This document shows positions 3,337 through 50,800 of a stretch of DNA of 64,000 nt, one piece after another; positions within the stretch are counted from its first letter, which is position 1, and every line of letters begins with the position of its first letter. The notes below the pieces were generated by a model, which worked only from the letters and a program-made list of their open reading frames with translations, was not told where the DNA came from and made no database searches. The position numbers and the translations under genes were made by a program. Source of the DNA: Cenococcum geophilum 1.58 (Eukaryota > Ascomycota > Dothideomycetes > Gloniales > Gloniaceae); the NCBI GenBank assembly GCA_001692895.1, contig KV748240.1, positions 875,239-939,238 on the forward strand. Direction: 5' to 3'.

Positions 3337-3660
3337 GCTGCCACAGCAGACCAAGACCATTGCCAGCAGACCGAGACCATTGCCAGCAGATCAAGACCGC
3401 TGCCAGCAGACCAAGATCGCTGCCAGTAGACCAAGACCGCTGCCAGCAGACCGAGATCGCTGCCAGCAGACCAAAACCGCTGTCAGCAGATTGAGACCTC
3501 TGCCAGCAGACCAAGATCCTTGCCACAGACCGAGATCGCTGTCAGCAGACCGAGATCGCTGCCCACAGACCAGAGATCCATTGCCATGCAGACCAAGACC
3601 GCTGCCCAGCAGACACTAAGATCGCTGTCTTTAGATCTGAGACCGGCTCTCGGCAGATCT
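3337..3660 (+). repeat. Minisatellite, unit about 18-20 bp (GCTGCCAGCAGACCAAGACC)
   Basis: Around 16 degenerate units of the form GCTGCCAGCAGACCAAGACC, with C/T and A/G variants. Isolated decayed units reappear at 3838-3890 and 4080-4180. Because units are near multiples of three the array stays open in several frames, but these frames are not genes. Confidence 0.8.
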
Positions 3661-5224
3661 AGATTGGCTGCCAGTTGATCGCAAAGACCGTCTCGGCACG
3701 TATAATATCATTTCGATTATAGATCGTTAGATGTAGCATTTAGGAATCGTATGCACATATATATATTTTTATAACAGTTAATATCTTAATCCTGTCCCAA
3801 TATAAAATTAATAATATTCTTAATGTTGATTTTAGGAGCGCCGCAGACACAAGACCGCTTGCCAAGCTAGACCAAGACCGCTGCCAGCGACCAAGATCAC
3901 CATTGTCATTCAATTCCGATTGCCATACAACGGAATCCAAACATCGACAGGATTATTCTAATCTCTTGTCAGAATAGAAGAGCGCATTGCCAGTTATATA
4001 TATAAAAATATATATGGTTTCAGCGATTCAAGACTCGAGAGCGCGTGAGGATCTCAGGACATTGGACACCGATAGAATCGCGTCCAGTAGACCAAGACCG
4101 CTGCAGCAGACGCGAGATCGACTGCCCGCAGACCAAAAACCCTGTCAGCCAGATTGAAGACCTCTCGCAGCAGACGCACAGGTACAATACACGTTTTCAT
4201 TTTGGAATTGCATGCGGCACGCGAGCAACCGCCAGATCGAGTGCATGAGTACAGCAGTACCGAATCAGCAGGGACACAGGCGCAATACCACAAAAGATCC
4301 GATAGACCAGCTATGACGCGAGAGACGACGCGGTGCCAGCAGACGTACTCAGCGCGTCAAAAATACATATGACCTGCAAAATACGACAAACAGGCATACT
4401 CGAGAGTATTGTCTGAGAATCGCCCAGCCTAAACTAGACGCCCAGATACCGCGCAGGCAGTATCGAGACGTCCTAGCCGGAGCATGATTTATCGATCAAG
4501 AACTGCGATTACTGGTCTCCGCACTTCATTAGCAGAGCATTGCCACTCACAGTACTACGCAAATTGCCCCATGCATGGCAACAAAGTATTCGCAGCGGCA
4601 ATATTTAGCTGAGAGGAATACAGTATCGGGGATAATCTATAAGATATGCGCGTTGTGATAAGACTCTAGGAGAGACAGACCGAGCAAGGCGAGCGCAGAA
4701 TAGAATTAGCGCAGCCGATCGGAGAGCACCACACACTCTCACTCTCGCAATCATACATTTGGCCATATCAACGACTGCACATGAATGCTGAAATTCTTCG
4801 ACAGACATCACTAAATACATAAATCTGCCTGTGGGGATTTCACAGATCCTATTGATAATCGAAATCAATATACGCAGCCTCAAATTGAGTAAAAATCTGA
4901 GAAAATATTGCAGGTACATTGAAGCGCCATAATTCGATCAATATGAATATAAAATCGGGCGATTGATCAAGATCATCGTGAAAGACATTAGATAAATTAA
5001 ATTGACAAATTATTAGCGCCGTAGGAAATAATTCTGCCCGGATTGTAAATGTATATGAACCCGCAGGGCTAATTAATTATACTATCTATATAAATCGGAA
5101 GAATCGAAAAATTTTGCAAGCCAGAACCAGACGACCGTCGCCAGAACTAGACGACTGTCGCCAGAGCCAGACGACAACGACTAGCCAGCGAACACTATAA
5201 ATGATTCGATCGATTGATCGAATT

Positions 5225-5560
5225 AAGGTAGCACAGACAGGTAGGCATAAACAGGTAAATACTAACGGGTAGGTAGATATAGATAGGTAGGCAGATGTAA
5301 ACAGATAAGTAGATATAGATAGGCAGGTAGATGCAGATAGGTAAGTAAATATAGATAGGCAAGCAGATACATATAGGTAGGTAGATATAGATAGGTAGGT
5401 AGATGCTAATAGGTAGGTAGATATAGACAGGTAGGTAGATATAAATAGGTAGGCGATATAGATAGGTAGGCAATGCAGATAGGTAGGCAATGTAAATAAA
5501 TAGGCGATGTAGGCAGGTAGGTAGATAGGTAGGTAGGTAAGTTAATAGGTAGATAGGTAG
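5225..5560 (+). repeat. Minisatellite built on GATAGGTAGGTAGATATA
   Basis: Imperfect tandem copies of a GATAGGTAGGTAGAT-type motif. The - strand reads as a low-complexity Tyr/Leu/Ile/Ser-rich frame that should not be annotated. The same array and flanks recur at 8600-9005. Confidence 0.8.
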
Positions 5561-5890
5561 AAGAGAACTATCGCTATATTATATTAAATTATCTAAAATA
5601 ATAATATTTATTTTGCTAGCCTTATAAATAGCTTTAAAATAGCTTTTATTTATTTAAAATATGCTATTAGTATAAAAGAGGTAAATATAATTATAGTTAC
5701 TAAATGCGCAGATTGCTAGTAGGTTGCGCGTAGGTTGCGTATAGGTTACGCGCAGGCTACGCACAGGCTACGTGTTAAAAAAATACAATATAGGCTAGTC
5801 AGTCGAGTTGCTAAATGACCTTAACTGCGCGCTAATTGCGTTAACCACCAGCCATTAAGGCCATTAAAAGGGTACCATATTTTGCCAATA

Positions 5891-6620
5891 TATAGATTTA
5901 GGCGCTACTATAACTAGAGTACCTTAACCCCTAAATACGGGTAGAACTAAATATAGACTCTTTAGATACTAAAATATACCCTATTAACTCTATAGAACTA
6001 AACCTTATTAATAAACTACTATAGGTAAACTATATAGCCCCTTCTTTACAGGAGTACTGTAAAAAGGTAAAGAACGTTTCTAGCCTATAGTCCCTTAAAA
6101 GTAAACTACTTAAGTACCGCGAACGGCTAGTAGTAGTAGAAGAATAGAACTTATAGACTTAGTTTATTACTAAAGTATATACCTAGGTCTCTACGGCTTA
6201 CCTTAAAAAAAACCCCCCTATAGGATTATTAGCGACCGCTACTACTAGCCCGGAATAATTATAAATATTAACCACTATATACGGAACTATAATAACTGCT
6301 ATAGGTTTATAATTCTATAAGATAAGACCCTAGAACTATTAAAACCCCTTCTAATACCTAACCGCCCCTAGTAATATATCTCTATAGACTTTTATAAGCT
6401 ACCTCTAAACCGTAACAAATATAATATAGTTATAATCCTAGTTAACCGCTTTAGCAAGCGCCCGTTTTTAATTCCCTATTATAAAAATATTAATACTAAA
6501 GAGGCGGCCTAACTATATATTTACTACGTCTACTAAATTTATAGACTACTAGATACTATTATATCTAATTATAGGCCGCAGTTTATATTAGCCTTTTAGA
6601 ATAAATTTACCTAGATCCTA
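5891..6620 (+). mobile_element. Ty3/gypsy element A, left part (integrase core), RIP-degraded
   Basis: Read on the + strand with the RIP stops, 6320-6615 matches a chromovirus integrase core: residues resembling RPW, DFYKLPP and the SDRGPQF block around the second catalytic Asp. The sequence stops at TCCTA (6616-6620) and continues at 15554, where TCCTA is repeated. Element A is therefore interrupted by element B. Not functional. Confidence 0.7.
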
Positions 6621-6771
6621 TATTACGGCTTATATAAATACCTCTAAACCAAAGCTTATAGAATACTATATTACGAAGATACTAAGCTAAAGAGAAGGAA
6701 AAGGGGTCGCTAGGACCGATATAAATAAATATATAAGGTGAGCTGCTAAGGCGCTAGCTTTAGGCGGGCTA
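6621..6771 (-). repeat. Left (3') LTR of gypsy B, first segment
   Basis: Homologous to the first 151 bases of the right LTR (15344 onward), beginning TATTACGG, probably TGTTACGG before RIP. The LTR resumes at 9340-9398 after the nested TIR element. Segment lengths 151 + 59 equal the 210 bp of the intact LTR. Confidence 0.8.
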
Positions 6772-6834
6772 TATCGGGAAAATATTCGCAGGATAAGATT
6801 TAAGTAGACTTTAGTTTTCGCGTTTCGCGTAATT

Positions 6835-7235
6835 GACATACAATTTAACCAACTCGACACGCAATTAACTAACTTAACACGCAGTTAACCTACTTAATAT
6901 GCAATTTAACTAACTTAACACGCAGTTAACCTACTTAATATACAATTTAACTAACTTAACACGCAGTTAACCTACTAATATATAAATTTAACTAACTTAA
7001 CACGCAGTTAACCTACTTAATATGTAATTTAATTAACTTACACGCAGTTAACCTACTTAACATGCAATTTAACCAACTTAATACGTAGTTGACCTACTTA
7101 ATATATAATTAACTAACTCAACACGCAGTTAACCTACTTAACATGCAATTTAACTAACCTTAACATGTAGTTGACCTACTTAATATATAATTTAACTAAC
7201 TTAATATGCAGTTAACCTACTTAACAACTTTAAAA
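6835..7235 (+). repeat. Tandem array, unit about 40 bp
   Basis: About ten copies of a unit combining ACTTAACACGCAGTTAACCT with ACTTAATATGCAATTTAACTA-like halves. Differences between units are mostly C/T and G/A, as expected from RIP. Confidence 0.8.
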
Positions 7236-7344
7236 GCTAACTGTATATTTCTTAACGTGCGATTAAGGTAAAGTTATATACTAATATATTAACTATTTAT
7301 ATATAATCTTATATAATCTTATACAATCTCATATAATCTTATAG

Positions 7345-7715
7345 TCTTATTACTTAGAGGCTCTGCATAAGGCTCTACACGAGCTCTACACGAAGCTCTG
7401 CGTACAGAGGCTCTGCACGAAGCTCTGCGTATAGAGGCTCTGCACAAAGCTCTGCACGAAGCTTCGCATAAGGCTCTACATGAGGCTCTACACGAAGCTC
7501 TGCGTACAGAGGCTCTGCACGAAGCTCTGCACGAAGCTCTGCACGAGGGTCTGCGCGAGGGTCTGCGCGAGGGTCTGCGCGAGGGTCTGCGCGAAGCTCT
7601 GCGTACAGAGGCTCCTGCCACGAGGCTCTGCGAGAAGCTCTGCGTACAGAGGGCTCTGCACGAGGCTCTGCGCGAAGCTCTGCGTATAGAGGCTCTACAC
7701 GAAGCTCTGCATCGG
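7345..7715 (+). repeat. Tandem array of GCTCTGCACGAA / GCTCTGCGTACAGAG units
   Basis: Repeats of 12-30 bp, GC-richer than the surroundings. The Arg/Ser/Cys/Ala-rich frames across it on both strands come from repeat periodicity, not coding. Confidence 0.8.
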
Positions 7716-7854
7716 GTCCCCCGCTATATTCCCGATAGCCTCTACACGTGCCTCTACCCTATGTAGCCACCTTATTTTTACCCTTCCTTCCCTTCTTTAT
7801 ATCCTCCTACCTAGGGAGGCACCAGAACGGCAGCCAGCAGAGGACCGTTGCCTA

Positions 7855-8560
7855 GAAACTAGACGACCGTCGCCAGAACCAGATGACCGTTACCAGAACC
7901 AGACGACCATCGCCAGCCAGACGACCGTCGCTAGAACCAGACGACCGTTGCCAGAGCCAGACGATCGTCGCCAGAACCAGACGACCGTCGCCAGCCTAGA
8001 CGACCGTTACCAGAACCAGACGACCGTCGCCAGCTAGACGACCGTTACCAGAACCAGACGACTGTCGCAGAACCAGACGACCGTCGCCAGCTAGACGAAC
8101 CGTTACTAAGAACCAGACGACCGTTGCCAGAGCCAGACGACCGTCGCTAGAACCAGACGACTGTCACCAGAACCAGACGACCGTCGCCAGAACCAGACGG
8201 ACGTCGCCAGCCAGACGACCGTTACCAGAACCAGACGACCGTTGCCAGAGCCAGACGATCGTCGCCAGAACCAGACGGACCCGTCGCCAGCCAGACGACC
8301 GTTACCAGAACCAGACGACTGTCGCCAGAACCAGACGACCGTCGCCAGCCAGACGACCGTTACCAGAACCAGACGACCGTCGCCAGAACCAGACGACCGT
8401 CGCCCCAGACGACCGTTACCAGAACCAGACGACCGTCGCCAGAACCAGACGACCGTTACCAGAACTAGACGACCGTTGCCAGAGCCAGACGACCGTCGCC
8501 AGAACTAGACGACCGTCGCCAGAACCAGACAACCGTCGCCAGAGCCAGACGACAACGACT
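7855..8560 (+). repeat. Minisatellite, unit about 20 bp (GACGACCGTCGCCAGAACCA)
   Basis: About 34 units with small indels and point differences, GC-rich within an AT-rich region. A few units of the same motif flank the homologous junction at 5115-5180 in the first copy of the element. Confidence 0.85.
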
Positions 8561-8599
8561 AGCCAGCCAACACTATAAACGATTCGATCGATCGATCGA

Positions 8600-9005
8600 A
8601 TTAAGGTAGTATAGATAGGTAGGCATAAACAGGTAGATGCTGACGGGTAGGTAGATATAAATAGGTAGGTAGATGCAGACAGGTAAGCAGATATAGATAG
8701 GCAGGCAGATGTAGATAGGTAAGTAGATATAGATAGGTAAGCAGATGTAGATAGGTAGGTAGATACTAACGGGTAGGTAGATATAGATAGGTAGGCAGAT
8801 ATAGATAAGTAGATATAAATAGGTAGGTAGATGCAGACAGGTAAGCAAATATAAATAGGTAAATAGATGCTAACGGGTAGGTAAATATAGATAGGTAGGT
8901 AGATGTAGATAGGTAGGCAAATGTAAATAGGTAGATGTAGATAGGTAGGCGATGCAAATAGGTAGGTAATGTAGGCAGGTAGGTAAGTCAATAGGTAGAT
9001 AGGTA
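8600..9005 (+). repeat. Minisatellite built on GATAGGTAGGTAGATATA (second copy)
   Basis: Same array and same flanks as 5225-5560. The flanking right-end sequence (9006-9336) matches 5560-5890 closely, so the two regions are copies of one element's right end. Confidence 0.8.
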
Positions 9006-9339
9006 GAAGAGAACCATCGCTGTATTATATTAAATTATTTAAAATAATAATATTTATTTTACTAGCCTTATAAATAGCTTTAAAATAGCTTTTATTTATT
9101 TAAAATATATTATTAGTATAAAAGAGGTAAATATAATTATGGTTGCTAAATGCGTAGATTACTGGTAGGTTGCGTGTAGGTTACGCGTAGGTTGCGCGCA
9201 GGCTACGCGCAGGCTGCGCGTTAAAAAAACACGATATAGGCTAGTCGGTCGAGTTGCCAAATGCCCTTAACTGCGCGCCAATTGCGTCAACCACCAACTA
9301 TTAAGGCCATTGAAAGGGTACTATATTTTGCCGATACTA

Positions 9340-19253: not shown

Positions 19254-22200
19254 CACCCTCGATCACCGTGTAAAACTGCCAGTGCTGTAATGATATCCTG
19301 GCACCGCTTTCTCGGACGTCCTAAAACCGCTTCGAGACCATACAGAGCGCGCGAATACAGATCTTCCGCTTCATTCGCCCTTCCCATCTGCTTGTACAGT
19401 ATAGCAAGTTTTTAAGTCGTGTTTAGGGCGGGAATATAGGCATTCACTTGTTCGCAACCGAGTACCTTCTCATATCCTTGCAGTACGCGCTGGTACATCA
19501 TCTCGGCCTCGTCTAGCCGTCCCTGGTCCACATAGAGATTGCCCAAGCTATTGACCGTGTCGATGGTTGATATATGCTCTGGTCTAGTCCTTCTCACGTC
19601 CTTGTAGTACGCGCTGGTACATCCTCTTGGCCTCGTCTAGCCGTCCCTAGTCTACATAGAGATTGCCTAAGTTATTGACCGTGTCGAGGGTTGATGTATG
19701 CTCTGATCCAAGTTCCTTCTCGTATCCTTGCAGTGCGCGCTGGTACGCCTTCCCAGCCTCGTCTAGCATTTCCTGGTCCGCGTAGAGAAGTTTGTTTCCT
19801 AGGCTGTTCAGCCTCCCTGCGAGATCTGGATGGTCTTCAGGCGTGACGTCGACCGCCTGCCGCGCCACTTGAATGGACTCTTTAGGGTCTTCTATCTTTC
19901 CTGTGCGTTTATATCGGCTTTCAAGCTTATTTCCTAGGTTATTTAGCCGGGCTGCGAGATCTGGATGGTCTTTAGGCGTAATGTCGACCGCCTGCTACGC
20001 CATTCGTATGGCCTCTTCGAGGTCGTCCATCTTTCTTGTACATTTATATCGGCGACCGAGTTTAATTCCCAGGTTATTTAGTATCTTTGCGAGATTTGGA
20101 TGGTATTGTGAGTGTGATATGTGAGCGGATGGTCCAGGAAATTCATCGGGTGAATGGATGAAAGAGGCTATTCACGGTTAGAATAAGAGCGAAGCTTCGC
20201 GACGTATTTTTGCTGGCAATAAGTAGCCATGGTCTAGGTGTGTCGTAACGTATGTTAGGTCTTAGCACGCTTTATGCGAGTTTTAGTGTTAATTAAAATA
20301 TCCCCCATAAGCGCCATTCTCATAACTCTCTAATTCGGTAGCATCCCTTCCAGGGGGGCAATAGACCCTTACGACCATTCCACGTCCATTTTGCCCTTCG
20401 TAAAGCATCGCGTAAGCAAATTATAAGACATTAGACGTGGAATACTCACGAACGTGATTGAAGTCATGAGTCCTCCAACTCTGATCTTGGAAGCAGGTTT
20501 GAAGGGCCCATTGAACATAGTTTGCGTCGACGGAGAATGCAATAAGGGCTAGGAAGAGAGGCAGTTCACCGGTCAACCCGCCATACTGATGATGTTCGGT
20601 ACGATGTGATTCCGGGGCATGATAGTGCTCAGGGAGGAGCATCTTAGGCCAGGTTTGATCGGGCCTTTGAGTTCTTAGTTGGCTGTGCTCTCCAGCATTT
20701 GTTACGTAGGAAGAATAAGTTTGCTGTCCATTATCCCAGTCCTCATAGTCAAACGATAGAAGATGCCAACCTTCGTCTCCGCCTTCCGGAGCATCTTCTA
20801 AATTTTGATCTGCTGTATCATCATCCCCATCCCCAACTTGTACCGTGGTGACATCACATTTAGACGCCCAGAAAATGCCATTATAATAATACACGGAAAA
20901 TGTCTTAAAGTGCGAACAGCTACCGGGTAAATAGGCCACCTGAGAGATGGACTGTCCATCGCAATACCAGTACAGGCCGGAAACACCGCCTCCAATCATT
21001 TGGTTCGTGCCTAGGGATTTTGGTGGATACCATGTCCCCACAGTATCCACAAAGGACATGTGGTTCGGGTGTTCTCGCATATAATCAATGCGGAAATAGT
21101 ACGGAGGCTGGTGTAGTGGCACTGATTAGAATCCCACTTCAAACCATTCAATGGCATACTAACCGACATGGCAAAGGAAGATTTCTGGCCACTTTTGGTG
21201 GCGTAGTCTTTAGGCGTGATATTGATCGCCTGCCGTGCTACTTGAATGGACTCTTCAGGGTCTTCTATCTTTCCTGTGCGTTCATATCGGCTTTCAAGTT
21301 TATTTCCTAGGTTATTTAGCCGGGCTGCGGGATCTGGATGATCTTCGGGTGTAATGTCGACCGCCTGCCGCACCACTCGAGTGGCCTCTTCGGGGTCTTC
21401 TATACTCCCTTTGCGTTTATATCGCCTTTGAAGATTACCTCCCAAGTTATTAAACTTCCCTGCGAAATCTGAATGGCCTTTAAGCGTGAGGTCCGGTCTG
21501 GAGCCTACACTGTGAGGTGACGCTTCTTGTTCCGGCCTTGTTTCTTCTTTGGGATCTTTGTTCGCTGATAAAGACGTTGACGCTGGAAGGCTTTGGAAGC
21601 TGAGGCTAATAGATTTTGTCGAAATATCAGATCTGAGGCCTTGTGCATTCTCGGAATTGCCGTCTACTCCAGATTCTGACTCTTCTCCTGAAAAAATACT
21701 TCTAGGAACAGAAAAGGTCGCAAATGTTTCCAAATGAAAGGACAGATGGTTGTCTAGTCCTTTTTTGAACGGACCTTCTATTAGGCAAATCGGGCATTTT
21801 GTACGTGTGTCCACAACACTTGACTCGCAAATATCTAGCAGGTTTTGAATTTGGGCCTCAGTGACGCCTTCACTGTGCTGTGACCGCAGATGACCTCGCA
21901 GCTCTGATGATGAAGCGAATACAGCATTGGCATGGCCAAAGCATTGCCAGGTCCTGCGGTGGACCAACCGTTCATGCTCTAGCCAACGATGTCTGCTGCT
22001 ATACATCTGAAACGCGTCAGAGCAGTCAGGATAGGTGCAGATATACGGTTGGAGATCTTGAAGCACATGGGTTCTGCCTCAGTCAGTTTCTATCATCCGT
22101 TAAGACTATGTAAAAAAAACGAGACCCACCTCCAAGTGCGGTTCTTCCCATGTCGAGAAGGACAAATTATCCCGCAATAGGGGCAGGGGAATTCAGCTCC

Positions 22201-23422
22201 GCCCAAAGCTGCAACCGGTGCGGGCGGTAAACAAATACTGTTACCATGAAGACCAAACGCTGTAGAGGCATATGAAATCACAGATTGCGTGTCGGAGGAA
22301 TCGTCAAGCTTGCGATCATATGTTGTAGCTTCAGTACCAGATAGAATCGATTTCCCCATAAGACTTAGTGCGGCAATATGTCCGGCTGGTTGAAGTCGTT
22401 GAGGTAACTGGCCGGCGTTCGGATCAGCCACGACGTTCGTCGATACAGAATAGCTTTGTGGCAAAGCATGGGCACCCGCGAGCTTCTTCGCGTGCCTTTG
22501 CCAGTACCGAAGTGCTCGTCGACGCTTTGTGATAGTAATGGCCAGGCGCTCGGCCAAGTACATCTCTTCTTGTTCATCTTCGGAAGTTCTAGGAAAAATA
22601 CTGGACATCTGCTGCGCAGCATCCTTCCGCAGTTGCTTGAACGATTCGAGAACATGGCTATGGTCGTAGTTGGCGTATTCTGCAAACTTGTCAATATTAG
22701 TTTCTTCGTCAATCTCTTTGTAGAGTGCCGGTTTCAAAGACTTTGTTTTGGTTGCAACGTTTCGAATCCTGAAAGACAGCTTGCACAGGTCTGCCAGAAT
22801 ATCCATAATGGTGAGCATATGCTGGCTAAGCTCAGTAGCAATAAGTTCATCCTTATTTCCTGTTTCAGATTCATCTTCCGAGGATTCTTCGCTTAGGTAC
22901 TCAGGTTTTGGCAGTTTCTCAAGGGGCAACCTTGTTCCATTGGCGACTTGAATACCTAGAATGAGGGTCAAATCATACTCTAAGCCCAAGAAAGAGAATC
23001 AGCGAAGCGACAGGGAGGCTTCCTCGCGAAACTCCTCCGAATTTCTCTTACAGGTGTGTAATCTAGAACAATGATAGTTGACGAGCGTACTCCTTGGTTA
23101 TTGCCTTCAACAAGGGTTTATAATGGAGACTCCTGAGATCTGATATCCACTTACTCTTCTGAAGAGTCAGATCTAACTTCGTCAAAAGCTTCATCACGTT
23201 CGTCTGCATCACAGTCGACTCGCGCAACCGGAAATCTAACGAGCTTCGACCGCTCTGCAAAGCTCCGAGATTTCCAGACCAAATTTTGAAGCGCCCAAGT
23301 TCTCCTTCAATCTTCCCCGGCGGCATCGACTCGCGATGGTCCTGTTCTCCGGTCGCCAGGACTGCCGTCAGCCGGGAGAAACTCCGCATGCATAATGAAG
23401 TCGAGTTGGCAATTGTAGTCAT
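19254..23422 (-). pseudogene. C2H2 zinc-finger / TPR protein gene, disrupted
   Basis: Three 5' exons are clean: 23422-23155, 22955-22130 and 22073 onward. They give an N-terminal helical domain (motif GRFKIWSGNLG..SGRSSLDFRLR), an acidic linker, a region ending in LAERLAI..RRR..YWQRH, then C2H2-like fingers (CPYCGIICPS, CTYPDC, HLRSQH, CPIC..HLSFHLE). NLGN-type TPR units begin about 21480 but break at about 21195, where roughly 1.1 kb of unrelated sequence is inserted. TPR homology resumes at 20107 and runs to 19254 with a CAG-to-TAG-like stop and frame changes. The N-terminal domain and fingers resemble the intact gene at 30540-34302. The 5' part could still make a truncated protein. This family's role is not established. 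Confidence 0.75.
20421..21122 (-). CDS. Unrecognised 233-codon open frame inside the insertion in the TPR pseudogene
   Basis: The open frame lies within about 20108-21195, which separates two homologous TPR stretches. It begins with a GTG-type codon after a CTAATCAG sequence that could be a splice acceptor. An in-frame ATG lies 14 codons further in. The translation is acidic in the middle (QVGDGDDDTADQ), rich in Tyr/Trp/His, and has one hydrophobic segment (LPLFLALIAFSV) near the C-terminus. I recognise no domain. It could be an exon of another gene carried in by the insertion, or a chance open frame. Low confidence as a gene. Confidence 0.3.
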   Translation of the reverse strand: MPLHQPPYYFRIDYMREHPNHMSFVDTVGTWYPPKSLGTNQMIGGGVSGLYWYCDGQSISQVAYLPGSCSHFKTFSVYYYNGIFWASKCDVTTVQVGDGDDDTADQNLEDAPEGGDEGWHLLSFDYEDWDNGQQTYSSYVTNAGEHSQLRTQRPDQTWPKMLLPEHYHAPESHRTEHHQYGGLTGELPLFLALIAFSVDANYVQWALQTCFQDQSWRTHDFNHVREYSTSNVL

Positions 23423-23771: not shown

Positions 23772-25640
23772 ATGTCTGGGATTGAGATTGCAGGACTCAT
23801 GTTGGGAGCGATTCCGCTCGTCATTTCTGCACTAGAACATTATGAGAATGCTCTAGACTCGACAATTGCTTTCATAAAATGGAACCGGGAACTGTCCACG
23901 GCCATACAGAAGCTTTGGTACTACTACCGGATCACCGAACATCTCTACACTTGTGACACTAACTTTAGATGGCTCATGGCAGGTTCCAGCACACATCATA
24001 TGTGCAATCAATCCAACTTCTTCTCATTCCTATTACAACAGACGAAGAACTTCATGATATGATGGACGATACCGACAACGCTTTGTGGACGAGCGACGAC
24101 ATGGCGGATGCTTTGCGGAAAAGGCTAGGCGGCGCCTACCAGGCGTATATGCGGACCATATGGCAAATGGAAGGAATAACAAAATCCTTGGCTGAGAAAT
24201 TGGATATCGAAGGTGCAGACAAGGTATGTGGTTCTGTTTAACGTAGCATGTGTAAATGGCGATCTAATTCTCGATAGGTTAGTCAGCATGGCCTCGAAGC
24301 GATCGTCCTTGCCAATCCACCCTCAAAGAAACATGGCATACTAGAATTTCAGTTCAGTAAACGTGTGAAATTCACAATGAAAAGGCAAAGAGTAAGGAAG
24401 CTGCTCGAGGAACTCGAAATTTGCAATAGACGGTTGGATACATACGCCAACAAGGCAGAGAAACTGGAAGAGCCGTATAAGGCTGAGAAAAAGCCAAAAT
24501 TTGCCCTTCCTCTCCGGTCGATCGAGGAGAATGCGGCCAGATTGTACGACGTTTTATCTCGGACATGGTGCTCGGCTCACTCTTCTCATCATGCTGGCTT
24601 ACTACTTGAACAACGTCTGGTCAGGAAGCGAAAGCGAATGGCCAGCCAGCAAGGGGGGCGTGCGGAAGAATGCGATGTCAACTGCTTTGGGATCTCATTA
24701 CTCCAGAGTCCGTCCACGAGGAAGTGGCTCGAGGTGGAATTCAGGTTGGCAGAAGCAGCAAGTAATAGTCAACAAGTCAGGTTCGTACACCGGACCGTCG
24801 AGACCGGAAGGTGATACTTAACTGCTGCACAGTTCGGCTGTACAATTAGTGGTCTCAGCGCCGCCTCCTACGCCAGGCTCCCAGGCTCCATATCTAGACC
24901 CCTCTCGGCTTCAGGTAGTGACGAATCTGTGTTCTGTCCTCCAACAACCAAGCCATCCTTGGATAGGCTTCTGTTTGGATAGCGAAGGTCACTTAAGAGG
25001 TGCATACCCTGCTCAACCGCGGGCTCTTGCTTATGTCGAAAATGCGGTTAGTCTTGGAGATATGCTTGTTAAACGACAGGGATCACTTAGCAAAGAGGAG
25101 GCCTATTCCCTTTCTATTACACTAAGTTCTTCTCTTCTCCAGCTTAGCCACACGCCCTGGCTGGGCCAGTCCTGGGATAAAGCTGACATCATCTTCCTCC
25201 GAGCAAAGGACGGATCGGGATTGTTTGTGGACATGAAACACCCATATCTCACTCGAGAACATACATCCAACAACACAGGAGTCATACGGCACAACGCTTA
25301 TCCTGGAAATGACTGCTCAAAGCTTCTCTCGCTTGGCGTACTGCTCATGGAAATTGACTCCGGTCAGCCCATTGAGAACTTACGACTTCCAGAAGATCTT
25401 GGTCCTAATAATGAACCAAATGAACTGTCCAACCTGCAAGCCGCCCGAAGATAGATTCTGGAACAAAAGAACAAAGGCGATTTGACCTTTGCATTCTACT
25501 CGGCAATCTCGCACTGTCTGAAGTGCTTCGTGGATCCTACTGCAAGTCTCCAAAATACAGATTTCCGGAGAACCGTTGAGGAACAGGTTCTTGCTCCCTT
25601 GGAAGAGGAAATGAACTTTCTGTTAGGTACAACTGCACAT
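23772..25640 (+). pseudogene. DUF7580-type protein gene with an in-frame stop
   Basis: Exons by phase and signals: 23772-23917, 23983-24223, 24278-24780, 24833-25640. The protein starts MSGIEIAGLMLGAIPLVISA, a start typical of fungal DUF7580 proteins, then carries the PITTDEELHDMM region (about residues 60-75), a coiled-coil stretch with LLEELE, and a degenerate kinase-like C-terminal half (LGFCLD-type, SLLQL..PWL, LLSLGVLLMEI). At 25452-25454 a TAG follows AARR where this family usually has Trp. The frame stays open afterwards for 62 codons (through HCLKCFVDP and APLEEEM) to a natural TGA at 25640. TGG to TAG equals a C-to-T change in a CpA on the other strand, the RIP preference. The truncated product would lack only the last about 60 residues. 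The function of this family is unproven, though it is common at fungal incompatibility-type loci. Confidence 0.75.
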
Positions 25641-26208: not shown

Positions 26209-29168
26209 ATGGTGTCGGAGGACCCGCTGGACCTCGCGCAGTCCGCCATCGTGCGGGTTGCGGACATTGCCTCACTACTGGGCGTGCAGTGCAAGTGGCC
26301 GATATGCGGTCGCCTGGGCGCGGAGCTGCTGCTAGTCGCGGACTACCTCAACACCGCCGGCCTCGACCAGGAGGAGCAGCTGCGGTTGCGCATCTCGAAG
26401 TTGTTGAGGGATATTGAAATGATCTGTAGCGTAAGTACCCAGGACCTATTCCTAACCGTCCCCAGGTGAGTCTTTTGCCGTGCGTGGAAGCTAAATCGTT
26501 CTACATCACTACCTGGAAACCGGATTGTAAACCTGGTCCCATTATTAACTAGTTTAGTGCTAATTAAGGTGTTAGTGGCCTCACCAAGCATCAGGAAAGA
26601 GCTATCCGCTCCTTGAGGCCATAGCACAAACGCAGCCAGGCTCACCACGGTATAGCAGGGCCCAGGCAGAAATCCAGCAGGGGCTCGTCAATATCACCTC
26701 GAAGAATGGCGTCGCGGCCGAGGAGGCCATTCTCCACATCCAGAGATTCACGAAGCGCGGCCACACAAGGCGACGTGAAGCCGACAAGGATACGCCCACG
26801 AAGAGGAACACGCCGGCTGAGTATCCAAGCGGCATCAACGTACTGGTCCACAATGTCTTGCGAGAACACATGCACGAACAGGAACACGCCGGCTGAGTAT
26901 CCAAGCGGCATCAACGTACTGGTCCACAATGTCTTGCGAGAACACATGTGTTGCGCCTGCAACAATGGAACCGTGCAGAAAACACGCGGCGGACACTTAG
27001 CCCGGCTTCTGCTACGGCCGTCGCCGCAAAACAGCACCGACCATGGCCAAGTACAATTTGACATGCTGTTCTCCTCCGCGCCATCCTGGAACGGATCTCG
27101 ATTCGGCCGCTGGCAAGACGTACAATTACTCGTGCCGCGGTAAGTATCTTCAAAATTCATGATAGCATTTTCTAGAGCTGACAGACGTTCAGGGTTCAGA
27201 AGAAGTCAAAGAAGCGCGCCAGATTCTCCAATAACAACAGTGGCACCCCGCCGCCTCTATCCTCAAAGCAACTGATGCAAGTCGATCGGGGCCAATTCTG
27301 CAACCTCATCAGTTTGGAAGCCAACTCGCGCATCTGCCTCACAATTCAAGACGGGAGGCTTCAGAAGTCTGGCTTCGAACCCCTCAAGCAAATAGTCGAG
27401 CACGTCCCTGGCATTTCGCTCGCCAATATCCTAGAGCTCTACCACCTCACGGCCAAGATGAAACTCGCACTAGCCTACATTCTTGCACAGTCCGTCTGGC
27501 AGTACTACGACTCGGGGTGGATGAAGACGAGATGGACGAGCGAGACGATACAGTTCCTAAAAGAGTGCGGGAGCATTAGCACCGGCAAACAGAGCAAACA
27601 GTTTGCTTGGAAGCCTTACCTCTCCGTTCGCTTCGGCGACGAGGACCCCGAATCAGGTGAGTTTAGTGACGTTGATGGCGAGATACACCGCTACCCAAGG
27701 ATTCGAGCGCTCGGGATCATGCTGGTCGAAATCGGGATTGGATTGCCGCTTCATAGGAGCGACGAGGAGCGTCCGGCGCAGTCGCTGACGGCAAAGATCA
27801 ACGACGACTTGCTACTAGCCATACAGTACTCAAAGAACGAGAAGCTTTGGAGAGACTGTGATTACCCTAATTTCTTAGGCGCGGTTAACCATTGTTTGGA
27901 CCCCGGAACCTTCGCCTTGGCGCCCTGTATTCGAGGAGTGGGCGACAAAGAGGAGGCAGAGGGTCTGAAGCGGCGGAGGAATATCTTGTACGAAAAGGTT
28001 GTCTTTCCGTTAGAGGAGCTGCTGCACGGGACTAGGTGGATGGAACAGCTGACTGCAATTGGTCCTCTGGAAACCCCTGCCAAAAGTTCCGCCGTACAGC
28101 CTGTTGCCGAGCAATCCTCTGCCGATGACGCCGCTATTGGGCCGCCGCCAACCCGGAAAGCCGCCAAGAAAACCATCACTAAGAGTGAGAAGGAAGCCAA
28201 ACGATGGCTCTCACGTATGCAGTGGCTAAACAGCGAGCTAGCCAAGACATCCCAGCGAATGGTACCGGGCAGTTCTTCCGCACGCGTTCGGATTGCTGTG
28301 TTAGATACTGGTTGCGACAACAATGCCCCATTTTTCCTCCACCCGGACAACGGGCCTCGTCTCAAAGAATGGAAGGACTGGGTCGATGGGTCTGACCAGT
28401 GGCAAGATTGTCACGGGCATGGCACTCACTTGGTATCTCTGGTTATGAAGACCGCGCCAGAAGCACATATATGTGTAGCTCGTATTGCTAAAAGCCCTGA
28501 CACACTCTTGAAGGCGGGCGAGAATGTCGCAAAAGTATCGCATTTCACCTGCCGGGCTATTAAATCGAGACTTGGCTGGCACGCTGACTAGATTTCAGGC
28601 GATCTCCTGGGCGAGCAAAGAGTGGAAAGCCGACATAATTTCAATGTCATTCGGATACGCGGAGGAGCAGCAGTGTATCAGCAGAGCCATCCGCGGTACT
28701 TTGTATGAGCGCGATGACTCTATCCTCTTTTTTGCGGCGGCCTCAAACTATGGAGCGAACGACATGGAGATGTTCCCCGCCAGACACGACTCCGTCATCT
28801 CTATACGCGGCACCAATTCAAATGGCGACTTTGAAGACTTCAATCCTCCACGAAACCAGAATGAAGAGACGGCGTTCGGCACTCTGGGCTTAGATGTCCC
28901 CTCTGCATGGCTGAGCGATCACGACGACGAAGTATACATGTCTGGCACCTCGATCGCAACGGCAGTCGCGGCGGGTATAGCAGGCGCTCTGTTAGGATAT
29001 GTAAATGGCAAATCGAAAGAAAGCGCATTCCAAGATGTAAACAAGAAACTGCGGACGCGTCGGGGAATGCAGGCAATATTCCGGGCTCTTGCCTCCCCGA
29101 CGTTGAAGGAGCGCTACTTGTATTTGGCGCCGTGGAAGCTCATGGGTAAGTCTGACGAAGTACGATGA
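26209..29168 (+). CDS. DUF7580-subtilisin (S8) protease, HET-Q2-like, frame broken by a 76-bp duplication
   Basis: Exons: 26209-26430, 26576-27139, 27193-28534, 28599-29168. The N-terminal part (DLAQSAIVRVADIASLL..CKWPIC) and the middle (QFDMLFSS, LAYILAQSVWQYYDSGW, LGIMLVEIGIGLPL, LEELLHG) form a DUF7580-like region. The C-terminal third is a subtilase with the full triad: Asp in AVLDTGCD (codon 28304), His in HGHGTH (28418), Asn in AASNYGAN, and Ser in SGTSIATA (28950). There is no signal peptide, so it is probably cytosolic. Exon 2 contains a 76-bp tandem duplication. Without it exon phases agree, giving about 873 aa. With it the frame ends at a TGA just inside the second copy. It lies tail-to-tail, 79 bp from the gasdermin-like gene, which suggests that protein is its substrate. 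As assembled this allele is probably null unless splicing bypasses the duplication. Confidence 0.8.
26797..26948 (+). repeat. 76-bp tandem duplication in protease exon 2
   Basis: 26797-26872 and 26873-26948 are identical except for one base (CACGAAGA versus CACGAACA at the start). 76 is not a multiple of three. The upstream frame (VAAEEAILHIQRF) runs through copy 1 and stops just inside copy 2, while the downstream frame (CCACNNGTVQK) is in phase with copy 2. Removing one copy restores phase with both neighbouring exons. Confidence 0.9.
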
Positions 29169-29247
29169 GCAATTTTTGTAGCGGCGCTGTCTGATATCTC
29201 TTGATACATGGAGACAGGTTGAGGCTGATAAATTAATCCTCACTATG

Positions 29248-30132
29248 CTACATATCGACTGCTGAAATACATGTAATCTTGCTCTCGCCCTCCCCCAATT
29301 TCACTATCGTAATTTCGCCTGTGCTGCGGCAAACGGGTAAATTATCCTCGCTAGCTACACTTGCTGCCACCTGTCCCGTGATCTCGTCTTCATCATCTTC
29401 CTCGTCATCCTCCTCGTCTTTGCTGAGATACGCTGCCTTGTGCCTAAGCTCATCGTACTCAATCTTTGTCCCCTTCCAGCCTTTAACCTCGATCTTGAGC
29501 AGCTGGTAGGCGAACACAATGTCCTCGCCTGCCTTCCACGTGTCACTCTCCTCCGTGCTGGCGGACTTGGCAAGATTGGCCCCAAGCCCTACGTTGACAG
29601 CGGGCGGGGGAACATTGCCGCTGACCTCCACCTCGCCAGCCCTGTGCTTCCCCCTGCGCTGCATGGCCGCGAAGCCCTTTGCGATCATCAGACCAGTGAC
29701 CATATACACCGGCTGCCGCAAGCCGGGCATGCTGCCAGCCTTGACGACGGTCTGGACACGCGGGACCTTGAGGCGGGCCTCGATCTCCTCGAGGGGTGGG
29801 TCGGTGACAAAGTACGCGGTCTCGAGGGCGTCCATGGTATAGTTCGTGTGCACGTTGCCGTGCTCGCCAGAGACTTTTGCGGAGACGGTCTGCACGAACT
29901 TCGCCCACACGGCCATCGACAGGTCGCTGCTAGTCTTACGCGTCATGCTACGGTCGTAGTCGGTCATCGTTTCAATGGACGGATAAACCGCCTTCAGGGT
30001 GCTCACATTGACAGTCGTCAGCGCCCGGTGCGGTCGTAGCGGGTCTGCGATAATGTTGCCTAGCGCAATTGGGCCTGTGCCCGGCTTGAAATGGAAGTTG
30101 GGCGCAAGCAGGTACGTTGGTTGTAGTGCCAT
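29248..30132 (-). CDS. Gasdermin-like pore-forming protein (RCD-1/HET-Q1 family)
   Basis: Single exon, 294 aa. The N-terminal pattern LAPNFHFKPG..IALGNIIADP..PHRAL and the central motifs ALETAYFVTDP, PRVQTVVKAG and PVYMVTGLMIAKGFAA match what I recall of fungal gasdermins (Neurospora RCD-1, Podospora HET-Q1). It has no signal peptide. A hypervariable acidic stretch (about residues 238-250, DEEDDEEDDEDE) separates the core from a last 44 residues of about 5 kDa. In HET-Q1, a subtilisin-like protease (HET-Q2) removes a C-terminal piece of about 5 kDa to release membrane-permeabilising activity. The frame is intact with no RIP-type damage. It is convergent with the S8 protease and divergent from the C2H2-TPR gene. 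The family call is from memory, without an alignment. Confidence 0.75.
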   Translation of the reverse strand: MALQPTYLLAPNFHFKPGTGPIALGNIIADPLRPHRALTTVNVSTLKAVYPSIETMTDYDRSMTRKTSSDLSMAVWAKFVQTVSAKVSGEHGNVHTNYTMDALETAYFVTDPPLEEIEARLKVPRVQTVVKAGSMPGLRQPVYMVTGLMIAKGFAAMQRRGKHRAGEVEVSGNVPPPAVNVGLGANLAKSASTEESDTWKAGEDIVFAYQLLKIEVKGWKGTKIEYDELRHKAAYLSKDEEDDEEDDEDEITGQVAASVASEDNLPVCRSTGEITIVKLGEGESKITCISAVDM

Positions 30133-30539: not shown

Positions 30540-33500
30540 ATGGAGGTCAGTAGGGTCATCTTCGAGGCCACTGCCGTGTGCCTCCAGAGCTTCACAGACT
30601 GCCTGGCGGTCGAGGCGCTAATGACGGATGAGTGGGCTGAGAACCGCCTGGCCGACTTCAACCTCTGGGTCTCTGGCATCGGTGCTTCAGCGCGCGGCCG
30701 AGCATCTCTCGACTCGAGAATGGCCCTCAAACCCGAAGCCCGCGAGGTAATAGCCAACCTCCTGCGTCTACTTGCTGGAGTTGTCGACGAGTGCAAAAAG
30801 CTAGGTCAGGCCGAGGCCCCGTTTCCGTCAAGACAGCTGTTGATTGATGCTGGGATCTTGCAGCACTCTCCGAGACTACCAACCTCCTTTCAGAATCTAG
30901 CCATGATGGAGAACTCCGCGGGCGTCTCGCCACTCTGTCGCCGGAGGAGCCTCCGGCGCGGTCATTTTCTCCTTGGTCAGATGACTCTGCCTCCGATACC
31001 CAGTCGGAGACAGAGTTTAAACCGCTCTCTTCAGGTAACCCGTTGCGCGAAAACATGCAAAACATAGAGATGATGCTTGACCAGCTTTCCCGGATCGCCG
31101 TTGCGGTTCGACGGTCAGGCAGGCGTTCACGGCTGCAGAAGGCGGATCAGCGGTTCAAGTCAGAGGAACATGAGGACTTGCAGAAGCATCTAATCACCAT
31201 TTTGCTTGCACGTCCCGAATTTTCGAAAGAGCAAATTGAACCGTCTAAGCTGAGTAAAGTGCAGCAACGTTTAATCTATTGCAATCTGAAGCGTCGTAAC
31301 CGCTTCCTATATGCGCAGCAGCATTCGAAATGGCTGGATCCGGACACTGCGGGACGCCCCATCGAAACAATTGGAACACGTCCGCCAACCGATGGAGAAG
31401 CGGCCAAGGAAAAACAGAAGAAGCCCTCGAGCGAAGCAACAGACGCCCGGATAAATCCCACAATAAGAACAGGAACTAGCGCGTCCGCGGTCAGCGACTC
31501 CCTTGCTTTACCGCAGGCCCTAATACCAGCACCAGCCGCGTCGACTGTCATGTCGTCGACTGTGATCGACATCAAATACCCTAGCCCTCCAAAAATAAAA
31601 GAAGGGGCACGTGTTTTTGCGTGTCCTTGTTGCTGCCAAACGCTTCCCGTGAATTTATCAGAGGAGAACAGGTGGAAGTAAGTAATCCAGTTTGAATGGG
31701 GTCACGAATGATACTAGAGTAGGACAGAAAACACGTCGCGGATGACCTCAGTCCGTACACCTGCATACTGCCAGAGTGTGTTAAGCCCGAGGTTCTCTTC
31801 GTCACAAAGGAAATTTGGCGACAACACCTTCTCAAGGAGCACCGCAGCTTTGAGTATTGGGTTTGCTTTGCCTGCGGAGACGGCACACAGCTTCATAGCG
31901 AAGATGCCTTTACCATACATACAAGGACAAAACATGCAGCGTCCGTACCGCCTGACCAAATTTCACTCCTGACAAATATTTGCAGACGCACGGCTCCTAT
32001 AGAAATCAGATCCTGTCCGTTGTGCAACTGGCCGGAAGGCGAAGAAGGTGAGGTAGATAAAGACGTGCTTCTCGACCACATTGCCAAAGACATCCACTCT
32101 TTCTCGCTCCGGGCATTACCGTGGGCGGACGATAACGGACAAGAGACCGACGAGCGCATAAACCACAGCGCCGACAAGGTTTATGACTGGCTCATAAAAA
32201 ACAATCTGTCGGAGAATCCTGACAAAGAAAGGCCTTCTCGCGAGAAGAAAGTCTATACCTCTGAGTACTTTCAACGCAATGCATATTTTGCAAGCAGTTC
32301 GGTAGCTTCGAGCTCTAGCGAACTTGAATCAGTTGCTTCGTGGGAGGAGGAGCTCAAAAAATGGAAGCAGAAGGAAAGCTCGGTTGCTTTTGGAAGCAGA
32401 GGGAGCGACGTGCTGTCTAGGGAGGAAGCTGATAACGAAAACGTATCATATTTGCAGGTTAAACCTTATGGAGCTATAGAAAATAACGAGCTCTCTGCAA
32501 ATGAAGCCAGGATGCCATACGTGGGTCAGGGCAAGCTCGGCGAGGACGAGGCAATATACCGGCAAGTGCTAGAAGGAAGAGAGAAGGAGCTGGGACGAGA
32601 GCACCAAGACACACTTACTAGCGTTAGCCAGCTTGGCTTGATGTTGTTTAGGCAGGGAGAGTATGAAGAGGCAGAATCCATGCATCGGCGGGCAGTGGAA
32701 GGAAGGGAGAAAGCGCTTGGGCTAGAGCACCCAGACACGCTGACCAGCATCGGCAACCTTGGGTTCGTGTTGCTAAGCCAGGGCAAGTACAAAGAAGCCG
32801 AAGCGATGTACCGGCGGGAGCTGGAAGGGTGTGAGAAGGTGCTTGGGCCAGAGCATATAGACACGCTCACCAGCGTCAGCAAACTTGGCTTGATGTTGGC
32901 TCACCAGGACAAGTATAAAGAGGCGGAATCCATGCATCGGCGGGCATTGGAAGGGAGGGAGAAAGTGCTTGGGCCGGAGCATCCAGACACACTCACCAGC
33001 GTCAGCAACCTTGGGTTAGCGTTGGAGAGCCAGGGCAAGTACGAAGCCGCCGAAGCAATGCACCGGCGGGCGCTAGAAATAAGAGAGAAGGTGCTTAGGC
33101 CAGAGCATCTAGACACACTCACCAACGTCAACAACCTTGGGTTGGTGTTAGAGAGCCAGGGTAAGTACGAAGAGGCTAAAGCAATGTACCGGCGGGCGCT
33201 AGAAATAAGAGAGAAGGTGCTTGGGCCAGAGCATCCAGACACACTCACCAGCGTCAGCAACCTTGGGTCGGTGTTATCGAGCCAGGGCAAGTACGAAGAG
33301 GCCGAACCAATGCACCGGCGAGATCTAGAAATATCTGAGAAGGTGCTTGGGCTAGAGCATCCACATACGCTTACCAGTGTCAGCAACCTTGGATCGGTGT
33401 TATCGAGCCAGGGCAAGTACGAAGAGGCTGAACCAATGCACCGGCGGGCGCTGGAAACAAGAGAGAAGGTGCTTGGGCCAGAGCATCCAAACACGCTCAC

Positions 33501-34302
33501 CAGCGTCAGCAACCTTGGGTTGGTGTTGGAGAGCCAGGGCAAGTACGAAGAGGCCGAAGCGATGCACCAGCGAGATCTAGAAGGATCTGAGAAGGTGCTT
33601 GGGCCAGAGCATCCAGACACGCTCACCAGCGTCAGCAACCTTGGGTCGGTGTTAAAGAGGCAGGGCAAGTACGAGGCGGCCGAAGCGATGCACCGGCGGG
33701 CGCTAAAAGGATATAAGAAGGTGCTTGGGGCGGAGCATCCTTCCACGCTGACCAGCATGGCCAACCTGGCGTCGACGTACAGGGGTCAAGGGCGGTGGAA
33801 GGAGGCCGAAGATCTGGAGGTGCAAGTAATAGAGATGGGAAAGAGGGTGCTTGGGGAGGAGCATCCTTCCATGCTAACCAGCATGGCCAACCTGGCGTCG
33901 ACATACAGGGGTCAAGGGCGGTGGAAGGAGGCCGAAGAACTGGAGGTGCAAGTAATAGAGACGGGAAATAGGGTGCTTGGGGAGGAGCATCCTTCCACGC
34001 TGACCAGCATGGCCAATCTGGCGTTGACGTACAGGGGTCAAGGGCGGTGGAAGGAGGCCGAAGAGCTGGGGGTGCAAGTGATAGAGATGGAAAAGAGGGT
34101 GCTTGGGGAGGAGCATCCAGACACGCTAACTAGCATGAATAATCTCGCACTTACGTTCAAGGCCCAAGGCCATAGTAACGAGGCTACCTCACTAATGGAA
34201 AAATGCTTCCAGTTGCGGAAACAAGTCCTTGGCCCTCAGCATCCATATACAACATCATCGCTTAAAGCTTTAAATAAGTGGCAGTTAGAGGTCGAACTTT
34301 AA
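30540..34302 (+). CDS. C2H2 zinc-finger protein with a long TPR array
   Basis: Exons 30540-30804, 30864-31677 and 31728-34302 give about 1217 aa, in phase throughout. The N-terminal domain (LADFNLWVSGIGASARGRASLDSR) is shared with the pseudogene at 23422. Next come NMQNIEMMLDQLSRIAVAVR, a basic region with LSKVQQRLIYCNLKRR, then several C2H2/C2HC-like fingers (CPCC, CILPEC, CFACGDG..HTRTKH, CPLCNW..HIAKDIHSF). From about residue 670 there are 14 kinesin-light-chain-like TPR units of 42 aa (EKVLGPEHPDTLTSVSNLG). The finger-plus-TPR layout suggests a receptor or scaffold, as in NLR-like allorecognition proteins, but there is no NTPase and the function is unknown. Confidence 0.8.
32550..34290 (+). 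repeat. 14-unit, 126-bp-period TPR-coding repeat array
   Basis: Units of 42 codons. Units 4-9 differ at only a few positions, and units 10-13 form a second near-identical subgroup (STLTSMANLASTYRGQGRWKEA). Within-gene identity far above TPR background implies recent unit turnover by unequal exchange or conversion. Confidence 0.85.
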
Positions 34303-47885: not shown

Positions 47886-50800
47886 TCACTCGGTATCAAT
47901 TTTCCAGTTCTCTTCGTCAGTTTTCTGCCTCTTGAGTCCTCTCTCCACCTCGGCCTCTCCTACCTCTACTTCAACGCCATCGAACGCTTCAGCGTCATCG
48001 AACGCTTCAAGCCGCACGCCTCCCTCTCCCTCCAAAATTCCCACAGCCCTCCACGCCGCCTCCGTCTCAGCATTCACCCTCCCCCTCCCCTCAGCCACAC
48101 CCCCAATCTCCTTCTTGCCCATCTTTACCTGACACTTATAACGGCCATCTTCCACCTTTCCTATAGGCACATACTCGACCTTATCACTGACAGCCAGATG
48201 TCCCAGTCGCTCTTTAGGATGCAGACAATCAACATTATCCCTAAGCACCCGCTCCAAAGAATCCAAGATCCCGAGCTTCCTGATAAAGCGCTCGCATGCT
48301 GAGATGTCACCACGGCTATCGACGTACACGGCGCCAATGACGCTCTCGACGATATCAGAGAAGAACTTTTCCGCGTCAGTGCGCGCGAACAGGTGCCACG
48401 GGTACTTCTGGCCGTGCTGCAACTCGTGCAGAATTTCGTCTCGAGACGCCTTATGCCGTCCCACGGCAGCTTGCTGCAGGCCGAAGATGCTCTGGGAAGA
48501 GTAGCGGAGGAATTGCCAGAGAGCTTTGGCGACGGGCGCTGGTTTTGGAGCCGGCTGGCCGGTGACTGGGTTGATGGTTATACTGAATTGTTCTTCGAGC
48601 ACGGTGGCCTCGAAGGCGAGGAAGGCTAGGAAAGATGCGTTGACCATGGCGGTCCGGATTGAGTGCATTTTTTGGTGCGAGAGCTCGGGCGTGTGGGTAT
48701 AGAGGCGATTCACAACTATATAATCGAGAATAGCGTCGCCAAGGAATTCTAAACGTTGGTACGAAGAGGTTGCGGTTTCTGCAGGGCCAACGTAGGATGC
48801 ATGGGTCAGAGCTTCAAGGAGAAGGCATTTCTTTGTGAACTTGTAGTCAATAAGATTTTCGACGGCCAAAAGATGGGTTGGAGAAGGGTGGGATGGAACA
48901 GCGTCGAACAGGAGCGTCCGACATTCGGCAGGCTCAATCCAAGGTTCGGTGGGAAGAAGCGTTTGGATGCATGTAATAGCCTTCGATAGTCCACCCTCGA
49001 TGTAGCAAGCGCCAATTAGCGATTCTACAACATCAGCGAGCAGCTTCGTGGAGCGTAGGGGCTTCTCCTTTTCTTGATCCTCACTCGAAAGAATGTCCTG
49101 AGAATATCGTGGACGCCATTTCGCTCCAGTGAATGCCTTCGTGGTAATGAACTTGTCAAGTCCTGTAGCCAGAGTAGCTTTAGCCAGGAAGCCATTTGAA
49201 TTTGTGCGCCCCTTCGCGGCGGTGAGGTAACTCTCAGGCCAATTCGGATGTGCTGCCGTGAGCGAGAGTGAAGTTAAAACTTTTAGAATACAATCGCCGA
49301 GGAACTCCATTCTTTGGTAGTTACAGCTTTCATTTGTTGATGATGCAGTCGTAGCTGTGACCAGGAGATTTAGACTTGAGAGAGGGAGAGAGACTGGTGC
49401 CAAAATTGTAGTCCGCAGAGTTTCTGCAATCAGAAAGATCTCGTAACGATGTAAGATAGATGGAATGAAGAGAGCAAAGATAGCAAAGGAAGCAGGAAGC
49501 AGACTAATAGAGCAATCTCTAGCATCTATGCTCTGAACTGCAGTATATGCCTCGTTTACCTGGGCCCCTCGGTCAGGGATGCGATGCAAAAAATCTCTTC
49601 GTTTGGGAAATTTTAAGACCTCAACTTGAGGGCCTTCCTCCAGGTTTAAACTTTTAACGGTTGATTCACTCTCGGGGAGCCTAATATTTTTAAAGATGAA
49701 AGCGCCCGCTTTTCCTGTTTCATGAACAATCCCGAAGTCGTCCGGTTGAGATAAATTAGCATTGGATAGGTCCAGGATGGGCCGAGAGCCTTCGGTAGAG
49801 TAATGCCAATGAAGGATTTGCTCAAAAGTCCAAGGTTCTAGTGGCCCACCAGGAACAAAGAGTGAAATAAAGTCATATCTTTCTTCTGTCATACGGCTTC
49901 CATAAACCGAGCAGAGAAGCTTTCGAGTGATAGCTTGCATAGTTTGTATTTCTTCAGCTTCATATGTCTTATCATCAAGCGGCCATGCAGTGACTACATA
50001 TTTCTTTGTCTCATTCCAATGAAGGACCACAGGAGGTATGTAAGGCATTGGAACAGGCATTAGCATGACTATCTTCAAAGGCTTCTCCTCGGGCGACACG
50101 AGACTGAGAAGCACTCTGTGATAGGTGCTAGGAGATGAGAGCTGCTGTCCTGCGACACCAATCCAGGGGTCTAGCCTTGGTGCTGTTAGAATGAGCGAAG
50201 GGCGGTCGTCGGATACATTGAATTCCGGCTTTTCGTCTTGCTGGTCAAGTAGAGGCAGTAGATTATCATTGATTAAGCCAGCAGCATGCAGAGCCTTATA
50301 GGCTTGAAACGCAGCGTCTCTCTTAGCGTTACGTTCTGTTCGCCAGTATCTTGAACTCTTAGCTGTCCTGACGGTAGTATCTACGGATACGGGAAGGGTA
50401 ACGGTAGCCGTTATCATGTCATCGGTGTCTTGATCAAAAGAGAATTGTGGCCTCATGTCAATATACGAACTTGACTGTAGAAGTGCGCAGAAATGGTGGA
50501 GGTGCTGCGAGGCATTGTCGAGTGTTAAAAGGGCACTAAAGGTTCAAAGTTAGTGTGAATGATCTCAATAATGGTGTGTACTGGTATCTATGGAACAGTC
50601 CCAAAGCGCGAAGTCGCATCATCTAAAAGGAGGGAGTTGTAGTTCTAAGCAGTCCGGGACCATTCAATGGACCCCGAGATAGTTCTGATTAGGCAAAAAA
50701 CAGTAATCTCTGAGTAGGCAATTGGACTAATCAAAACGTACCCCGTTGATTCAATACGAAATAGTAGATCTTCATTCTCCTCGGCTAATTCTCTTTCTTC

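Follow-up and report, generated by a model that had tools for sequence, protein, structure and literature searches.

Whether a gasdermin-like gene and a subtilisin-like protease gene that lie tail-to-tail in the genome of Cenococcum geophilum 1.58 still form a working cell-death module is the question raised by this locus. The window analysed is a stretch of 64,000 bp from contig KV748240.1 (positions 875,239 to 939,238), and the two genes occupy positions 26209 to 30132 within it. The locus is likely a fungal gasdermin/Q2L (fGSDM/Q2L) death cluster in which the executioner is intact and the activator is interrupted and ends early, so that the strain is probably left without the cognate activator. 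The features of the two genes are as follows.

26209..29168, forward strand: DUF7580-subtilase (Q2L-type protease) gene, four-exon model, frame interrupted
26209..26430, forward strand: protease exon 1, N-terminal region, donor GTAAGT (from the P0124-P0130 alignments; splice site by reading)
26576..27139, forward strand: protease exon 2, which encodes the helical region and the beginning of DUF7580 and bears the duplication
26797..26948, forward strand: 76-bp tandem duplication, copies 26797-26872 and 26873-26948, one mismatch (Tandem Repeats Finder)
26894..26896, forward strand: TGA, first in-frame stop after the duplication
27193..28534, forward strand: protease exon 3, remaining DUF7580 kinase-like domain, linker, and start of S8 with the catalytic Asp and His
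28599..29168, forward strand: protease exon 4, S8 with the oxyanion Asn and catalytic Ser
29166..29168, forward strand: TGA, late stop, approximately 10 codons short of the homologue ends
29248..30132, reverse strand: fungal gasdermin gene, 294 aa, intact; core approximately residues 1-236, acidic hinge approximately 237-252, variable C-terminal tail of approximately 42 aa

The gasdermin gene

The open reading frame (ORF) at 29248-30132 on the reverse strand runs from ATG to stop without interruption and encodes 294 aa, as the first-pass annotation had stated. The protein gives a profile match to solved RCD-1 with an E-value of 2.9e-8, and a Pfam scan of it returned DUF4298 alone, below the cut-off. 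The structural comparison with RCD-1 proposed in that annotation does rank RCD-1 first with both Foldseek and VIA, but from an AlphaFold model with a predicted local distance difference test (pLDDT) score of only 46. By its sequence the protein is a fungal gasdermin of the RCD-1/HET-Q1 family, which is the identity first proposed for it, and it is predicted to have the gasdermin fold. The C-terminal extension past the conserved core is approximately 58 residues, and a 16-residue stretch with at least nine Asp or Glu residues is found in 41 of the 46 gasdermin sequences measured (from a set of 50, with four unmeasured).

The protease gene and its lesions

The protease gene opens at the ATG at 26209 on the forward strand, and its exon limits are inferred from homologues and from GT-AG sites read in the sequence. 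Pfam matches consist of DUF7580 (E-value 4e-20) and Peptidase_S8 in two pieces, one at 1.5e-4, slightly below the curated cut-off, and the other at 5.4e-13. Exons 3 and 4 contain no internal stop and retain the S8 catalytic motifs, with residues that we take, from these motifs and the usual subtilisin pattern, to be Asp (28304-28306), His (28418-28420), Asn (28746-28748) and Ser (28950-28952). The gene ends at 29168, 79 bp from the gasdermin stop at 29248. The spacing, strand and DUF7580-subtilase architecture all agree with the first-pass annotation; the complete catalytic triad it described is present as motifs in exons 3 and 4, but the protein carrying them is not intact, since its frame holds a duplication and two stops.

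The homologue search, which scored the 7997 candidates sharing the most words with the query, gave 234 proteins at an E-value of 1e-10 or lower. Among the best 120 listed, precomputed Pfam assignments give DUF7580 with S8 in 83, DUF7580 only in 36 and S8 only in one, and many of the single-domain proteins are short. The 41 relatives that were aligned each carry both domains and measure 813-958 aa, most of them 840-900 aa. Pfam families besides these two occur in one to three of 51 proteins each, at E-values of 0.02 or higher, and a PDB sequence search with P0124 returned subtilases alone among the best 60 of 94 matches.

The duplicated unit of 76 bp is not a multiple of three and thus shifts the frame within exon 2. 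Six homologues (P0124, from Aspergillus wentii, and P0125, P0126, P0127, P0129 and P0130) were aligned to the window using tblastn. The alignments of P0127 and P0130 split at the duplication, running in frame 2 to 26872 and then in frame 3 from 26880 (P0127) or 26862 (P0130), with frame 2 resuming past the next intron in accordance with the exon phases. The remaining four homologues each give a single long frame-2 alignment that spans the duplication; in P0124 and P0126, the two inspected, the match worsens and stop codons appear directly after the first copy. The unshifted frame reaches the TGA at 26894-26896, and the predicted product would therefore be approximately 180 aa, without the kinase-like or protease domain. 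A protein search with the open stretch preceding this stop returned four relatives of exon 2, all of which, seen as proteins, have a single copy and are open to the end of the exon at 60-81% identity. One of them is on a contig of the same size (9094) as the listed exon-3 homologue P0142, and another is on a contig of the same size (12001) as the protease piece P0160 and the gasdermin P0104. A DNA search of the assembly found no second, unduplicated copy of the protease.

The second lesion lies at the end of the gene. Past the TGA at 29166-29168 the same frame still resembles the relatives for approximately 10 residues, and all 41 aligned homologues reach at least six residues beyond this stop. 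The protease of the sequenced strain is probably broken, as no intact reading frame was found for it in the assembly. Apart from this stop, exons 3 and 4 remain open with their catalytic motifs in place, and this points to recent damage. The one unusual feature of this locus is that a probably broken activator stands next to an intact executioner.

Conservation of the pairing

The pairing was compared among the matches listed, 120 per family, using an identical size of the longest contig of each cluster as a stand-in for a shared contig, so that sizes and not contig sequences were compared. By this measure 35 of the 120 gasdermin homologues in the list match a listed protease homologue (one of 120) exactly in contig size, and contigs of 5 kb or more carry 90 of the 120 gasdermin homologues. 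In five genomes the two genes have consecutive locus tags (TARUN_8912/8913, PHISCL_03793/03794, FGG08_005307/005308, Q9160_006646/006647 and ACHAQJ_010698/010699). The co-occurrence in relatives that the first-pass annotation had put forward as a check is borne out by both comparisons, and the gasdermin-subtilase pairing is, on contig sizes and locus tags, conserved across species.

Two queries returned the same seven gasdermin loci in the source genome (177 Mb, 162 contigs). An S8 gene lies within 5 kb of six of the seven, four tail-to-tail and two head-to-head, compared to 0.006 pairings expected from uniform placement of the 16 S8 loci of this genome. The architectures of the partners, read ORF by ORF with fusions inferred from adjacent ORFs on the same strand, are as follows.

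C65 (window), C24b and C92: DUF7580 and S8
C5: ankyrin repeats and S8
C1: TPR and S8
C102: S8, with no recognised family ahead of it

The DUF7580 match at C24b holds two stops, which may be introns or lesions. Two other S8 matches related to the window protease (G000:C40:439582-440439 and G000:C13:1475693-1476610) are without a detected gasdermin neighbour; they have stops within the longer Pfam match and none in the shorter, and these may be introns or the remnants of broken pairs. The closest in-genome paralogue of the window gasdermin (G000:C24:1664583-1665449; L002, L008, L009) is 35% identical to it, and tblastn with three proteases found no S8 in 20 kb around this paralogue at an E-value of 1e-4 or lower. 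Pfam identified no protease in the 10 scanned of the 16 ORFs of at least 160 aa at that locus, and its gasdermin may use another activator. A CHAT protease was considered as a gasdermin partner and rejected, as a genome-wide search gave at least 17 CHAT matches, none of which is beside any gasdermin locus.

Comparison with known systems

By descent and position the locus corresponds to the two-gene fGSDM/Q2L cluster, a kind of system that is already published, here with a broken activator. Published systems are described from excerpts of PMC10197012, PMC12881547 and PMC10989679, which also relay the fGSDM/Q2L clusters of Clave et al. 2022. Approximately 1900 fungal gasdermins are catalogued in PMC10197012, with approximately 80% clustered with protease genes and approximately 63% with S8 genes, in keeping with the statement of the first-pass annotation that most fungal gasdermin genes have a protease neighbour. 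The published clusters and the window have in common a gasdermin gene less than 10 kb from an S8 gene (79 bp here, with S8 catalytic motifs present), a multidomain protease and a pairing that extends across species. They differ in that the window protease has an interrupted frame, and in that its accessory region is a kinase-like DUF7580, where the excerpted accounts give WD40, ANK or TPR repeats.

The het-Q1/het-Q2 system of Podospora anserina likewise joins a gasdermin with a short C-terminal tail to an S8 serine protease. HET-Q1 loses approximately 5 kDa, the likely cut being at F238 with 40 residues removed (PMC12881547, PMC10989679). However, het-Q1 and het-Q2 occupy a single locus as alternative genes, or idiomorphs (PMC12881547), whereas the window genes are neighbours in the same assembly. 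HET-Q2 is also an S8 protease of 388 aa (PMC10989679), in contrast to the much longer aligned relatives of the window protease with their DUF7580 region. A literal equivalence to het-Q1/het-Q2, as first proposed, is therefore not upheld. RCD-1-1/RCD-1-2 of Neurospora crassa (8jyz, 8jyy) consist of the gasdermin core and are the best sequence and fold match to the window protein. At 244-257 aa they are shorter than the window gasdermin, whose acidic hinge and tail are longer. RCD-1 is activated through the pairing of two allelic variants, with no part played by cleavage according to the excerpt of PMC12881547.

The DUF7580 region

The DUF7580 region is predicted from structural models to have a kinase-like fold. 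HRD is present in two and DFG in one of 51 proteins, and all three occurrences are outside the stretches taken as the catalytic loop and DFG strand, so no catalytic HRD or DFG motif was seen at the expected places of DUF7580 in these sequences. The region is probably a pseudokinase. The order of helices followed by a kinase-like domain without HRD or DFG at the expected places, as in the protease relatives, is that of MLKL; the effector end of the window protease is a protease and that of MLKL a membrane-disrupting bundle, and the likeness is one of architecture. The name DUF7580 was not met in the literature searched with it, and a 2025 review (PMC12881547) refers, in its excerpted text, to 'other predicted kinase-like domains' fused to gasdermin-linked proteases without giving detail. 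A role for DUF7580 as the sensing half of the protease is plausible, and the predicted fold would make that role more specific.

Proposed mechanism and alternatives

The gasdermin would be made in an inactive form in which the short C-terminal tail restrains the pore-forming domain. In relatives whose partner gene is intact, the helical and kinase-like DUF7580 region may keep the subtilase off until a trigger arrives. By homology to HET-Q1, the released subtilase would then cut the gasdermin in or near the acidic hinge (approximately 237-252) and free the pore-forming core, which would form membrane pores and kill the cell. The activator of the sequenced strain is probably not made in full, and the gasdermin is consequently likely to be an executioner left orphaned or idle, unless it works in the manner of RCD-1 or is cut by another S8 protease of the genome. 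The executioner/activator pair claimed in the first-pass annotation thus stands by homology and by the conserved pairing with subtilases, but not as a complete working pair in this strain.

Several points weigh against this reading. Sequence shows the homology, the pairing, the domain architecture and, in this assembly, the two lesions; the kinase-like fold is a prediction, and cleavage, tail inhibition, sensing, pore formation and loss of function are inferred. The gasdermin fold match combines a weak model with sequence similarity. The Foldseek matches of the DUF7580 region to kinases are modest (best E-value 5.1e-4, four matches at 0.001 or lower), and their template modelling scores are low, partly because the model includes other regions. 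In the source genome no gasdermin neighbour was detected at 10 of the 16 S8 loci and no S8 partner was seen at one gasdermin locus, while 85 of the 120 listed gasdermin homologues are without a contig shared with a listed protease, although they are not thereby shown to be unpaired. Within exon 2, 23 GT-AG pairs enclosing 40-200 bases could reopen the frame, and an assembly or base error could account for the duplication or the late stop.

These last points lead to an alternative that is unlikely yet deserves serious consideration, in which a functional protease is still made: an unrecognised intron removes the duplication, or the duplication arose by mistake in assembly, and all that the late stop removes is a dispensable tail. 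Exons 3 and 4, open and with their catalytic motifs, and the 23 frame-restoring pairs are consistent with this explanation. However, none of the 23 has the branch motif CTRAY, which by eye is in each of the three modelled introns, or the donor GTAAGT, which is in two of those three; the absence of CTRAY does not exclude splicing. The four exon-2 relatives are, as proteins, continuous without a duplication, and the late stop would require a second, independent error. It is very unlikely that the gasdermin instead acts without its neighbour, as RCD-1 does, with divergent alleles interacting after cell fusion and an unneeded protease left to decay. RCD-1 is the closest solved relative and is not under cleavage control (excerpt of PMC12881547), and the gasdermin is intact where its activator is interrupted, but at least 35 of the 120 listed close homologues are paired with a DUF7580 protease and the window protein has the acidic hinge and tail of the cleaved form.

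There is a slight chance that a shortened, unregulated protease similar to HET-Q2 is made from a downstream start (such as the ATG at 27275 or later) and that the locus is becoming an incompatibility determinant. The open exons 3 and 4, the small size of HET-Q2 itself and the model of PMC10197012, in which pseudogenization leading to a constitutively active sensor gave rise to het-Q1/het-Q2, all fit this proposal. Set against it, an unregulated enzyme beside its intact target would be expected to kill its own strain, part of the kinase-like domain would remain in the product, and there is no evidence of a transcript from a downstream start. The chance adjacency of the two genes was rejected as having a negligible probability, given the pairings at 35 of 120 listed homologues and six of seven in-genome loci. 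Returning to the cluster with an interrupted activator, it is quite unlikely, but conceivable, that the locus has been caught at a step of the pseudogenization model, with the helical, pseudokinase and subtilase sensor broken in one haplotype and the executioner intact. Strains that have a working protease may then occur alongside strains that lack one, and fusion between the two kinds could be a trigger for allorecognition.

With this locus, the proteases that accompany fungal gasdermins gain a conserved subclass, the DUF7580-subtilases, and DUF7580 itself receives a concrete structural reading as a predicted kinase-like region without the usual catalytic motifs. Should the interruption of the activator next to an intact executioner be confirmed, it would provide a natural test of whether the loss of a sensor turns gasdermin loci into incompatibility genes.

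Surrounding genes

A second gene matching DUF7580 (23772-25640, forward strand) is located just upstream of the protease in the same orientation. No S8 was seen in this gene, and an in-frame TAG (25452-25454) lies within its DUF7580 match. The large TPR gene at 31723-34302 on the forward strand has TPR_10 and TPR_12 matches and repeat units of 126 and 252 bp that are 76-91% alike; homogenised repeat arrays of this kind are known from fungal NLR and het genes. The gene region at 21014-22998 on the reverse strand, on the far side of the two DUF7580 genes, has a TPR_10 match below the cut-off, and its reading, when compared by eye, is like that found upstream of the TPR repeats at 30848-32500, so the gasdermin locus may have similar genes to either side. 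Further away, a Dicer-like gene (47889-50543, reverse strand) has RNase III, Dicer dimerisation and double-stranded RNA-binding domains, and a dense cluster of short tandem repeat arrays with units of 4-163 bp spans 3344-9221, near the left end of the window.

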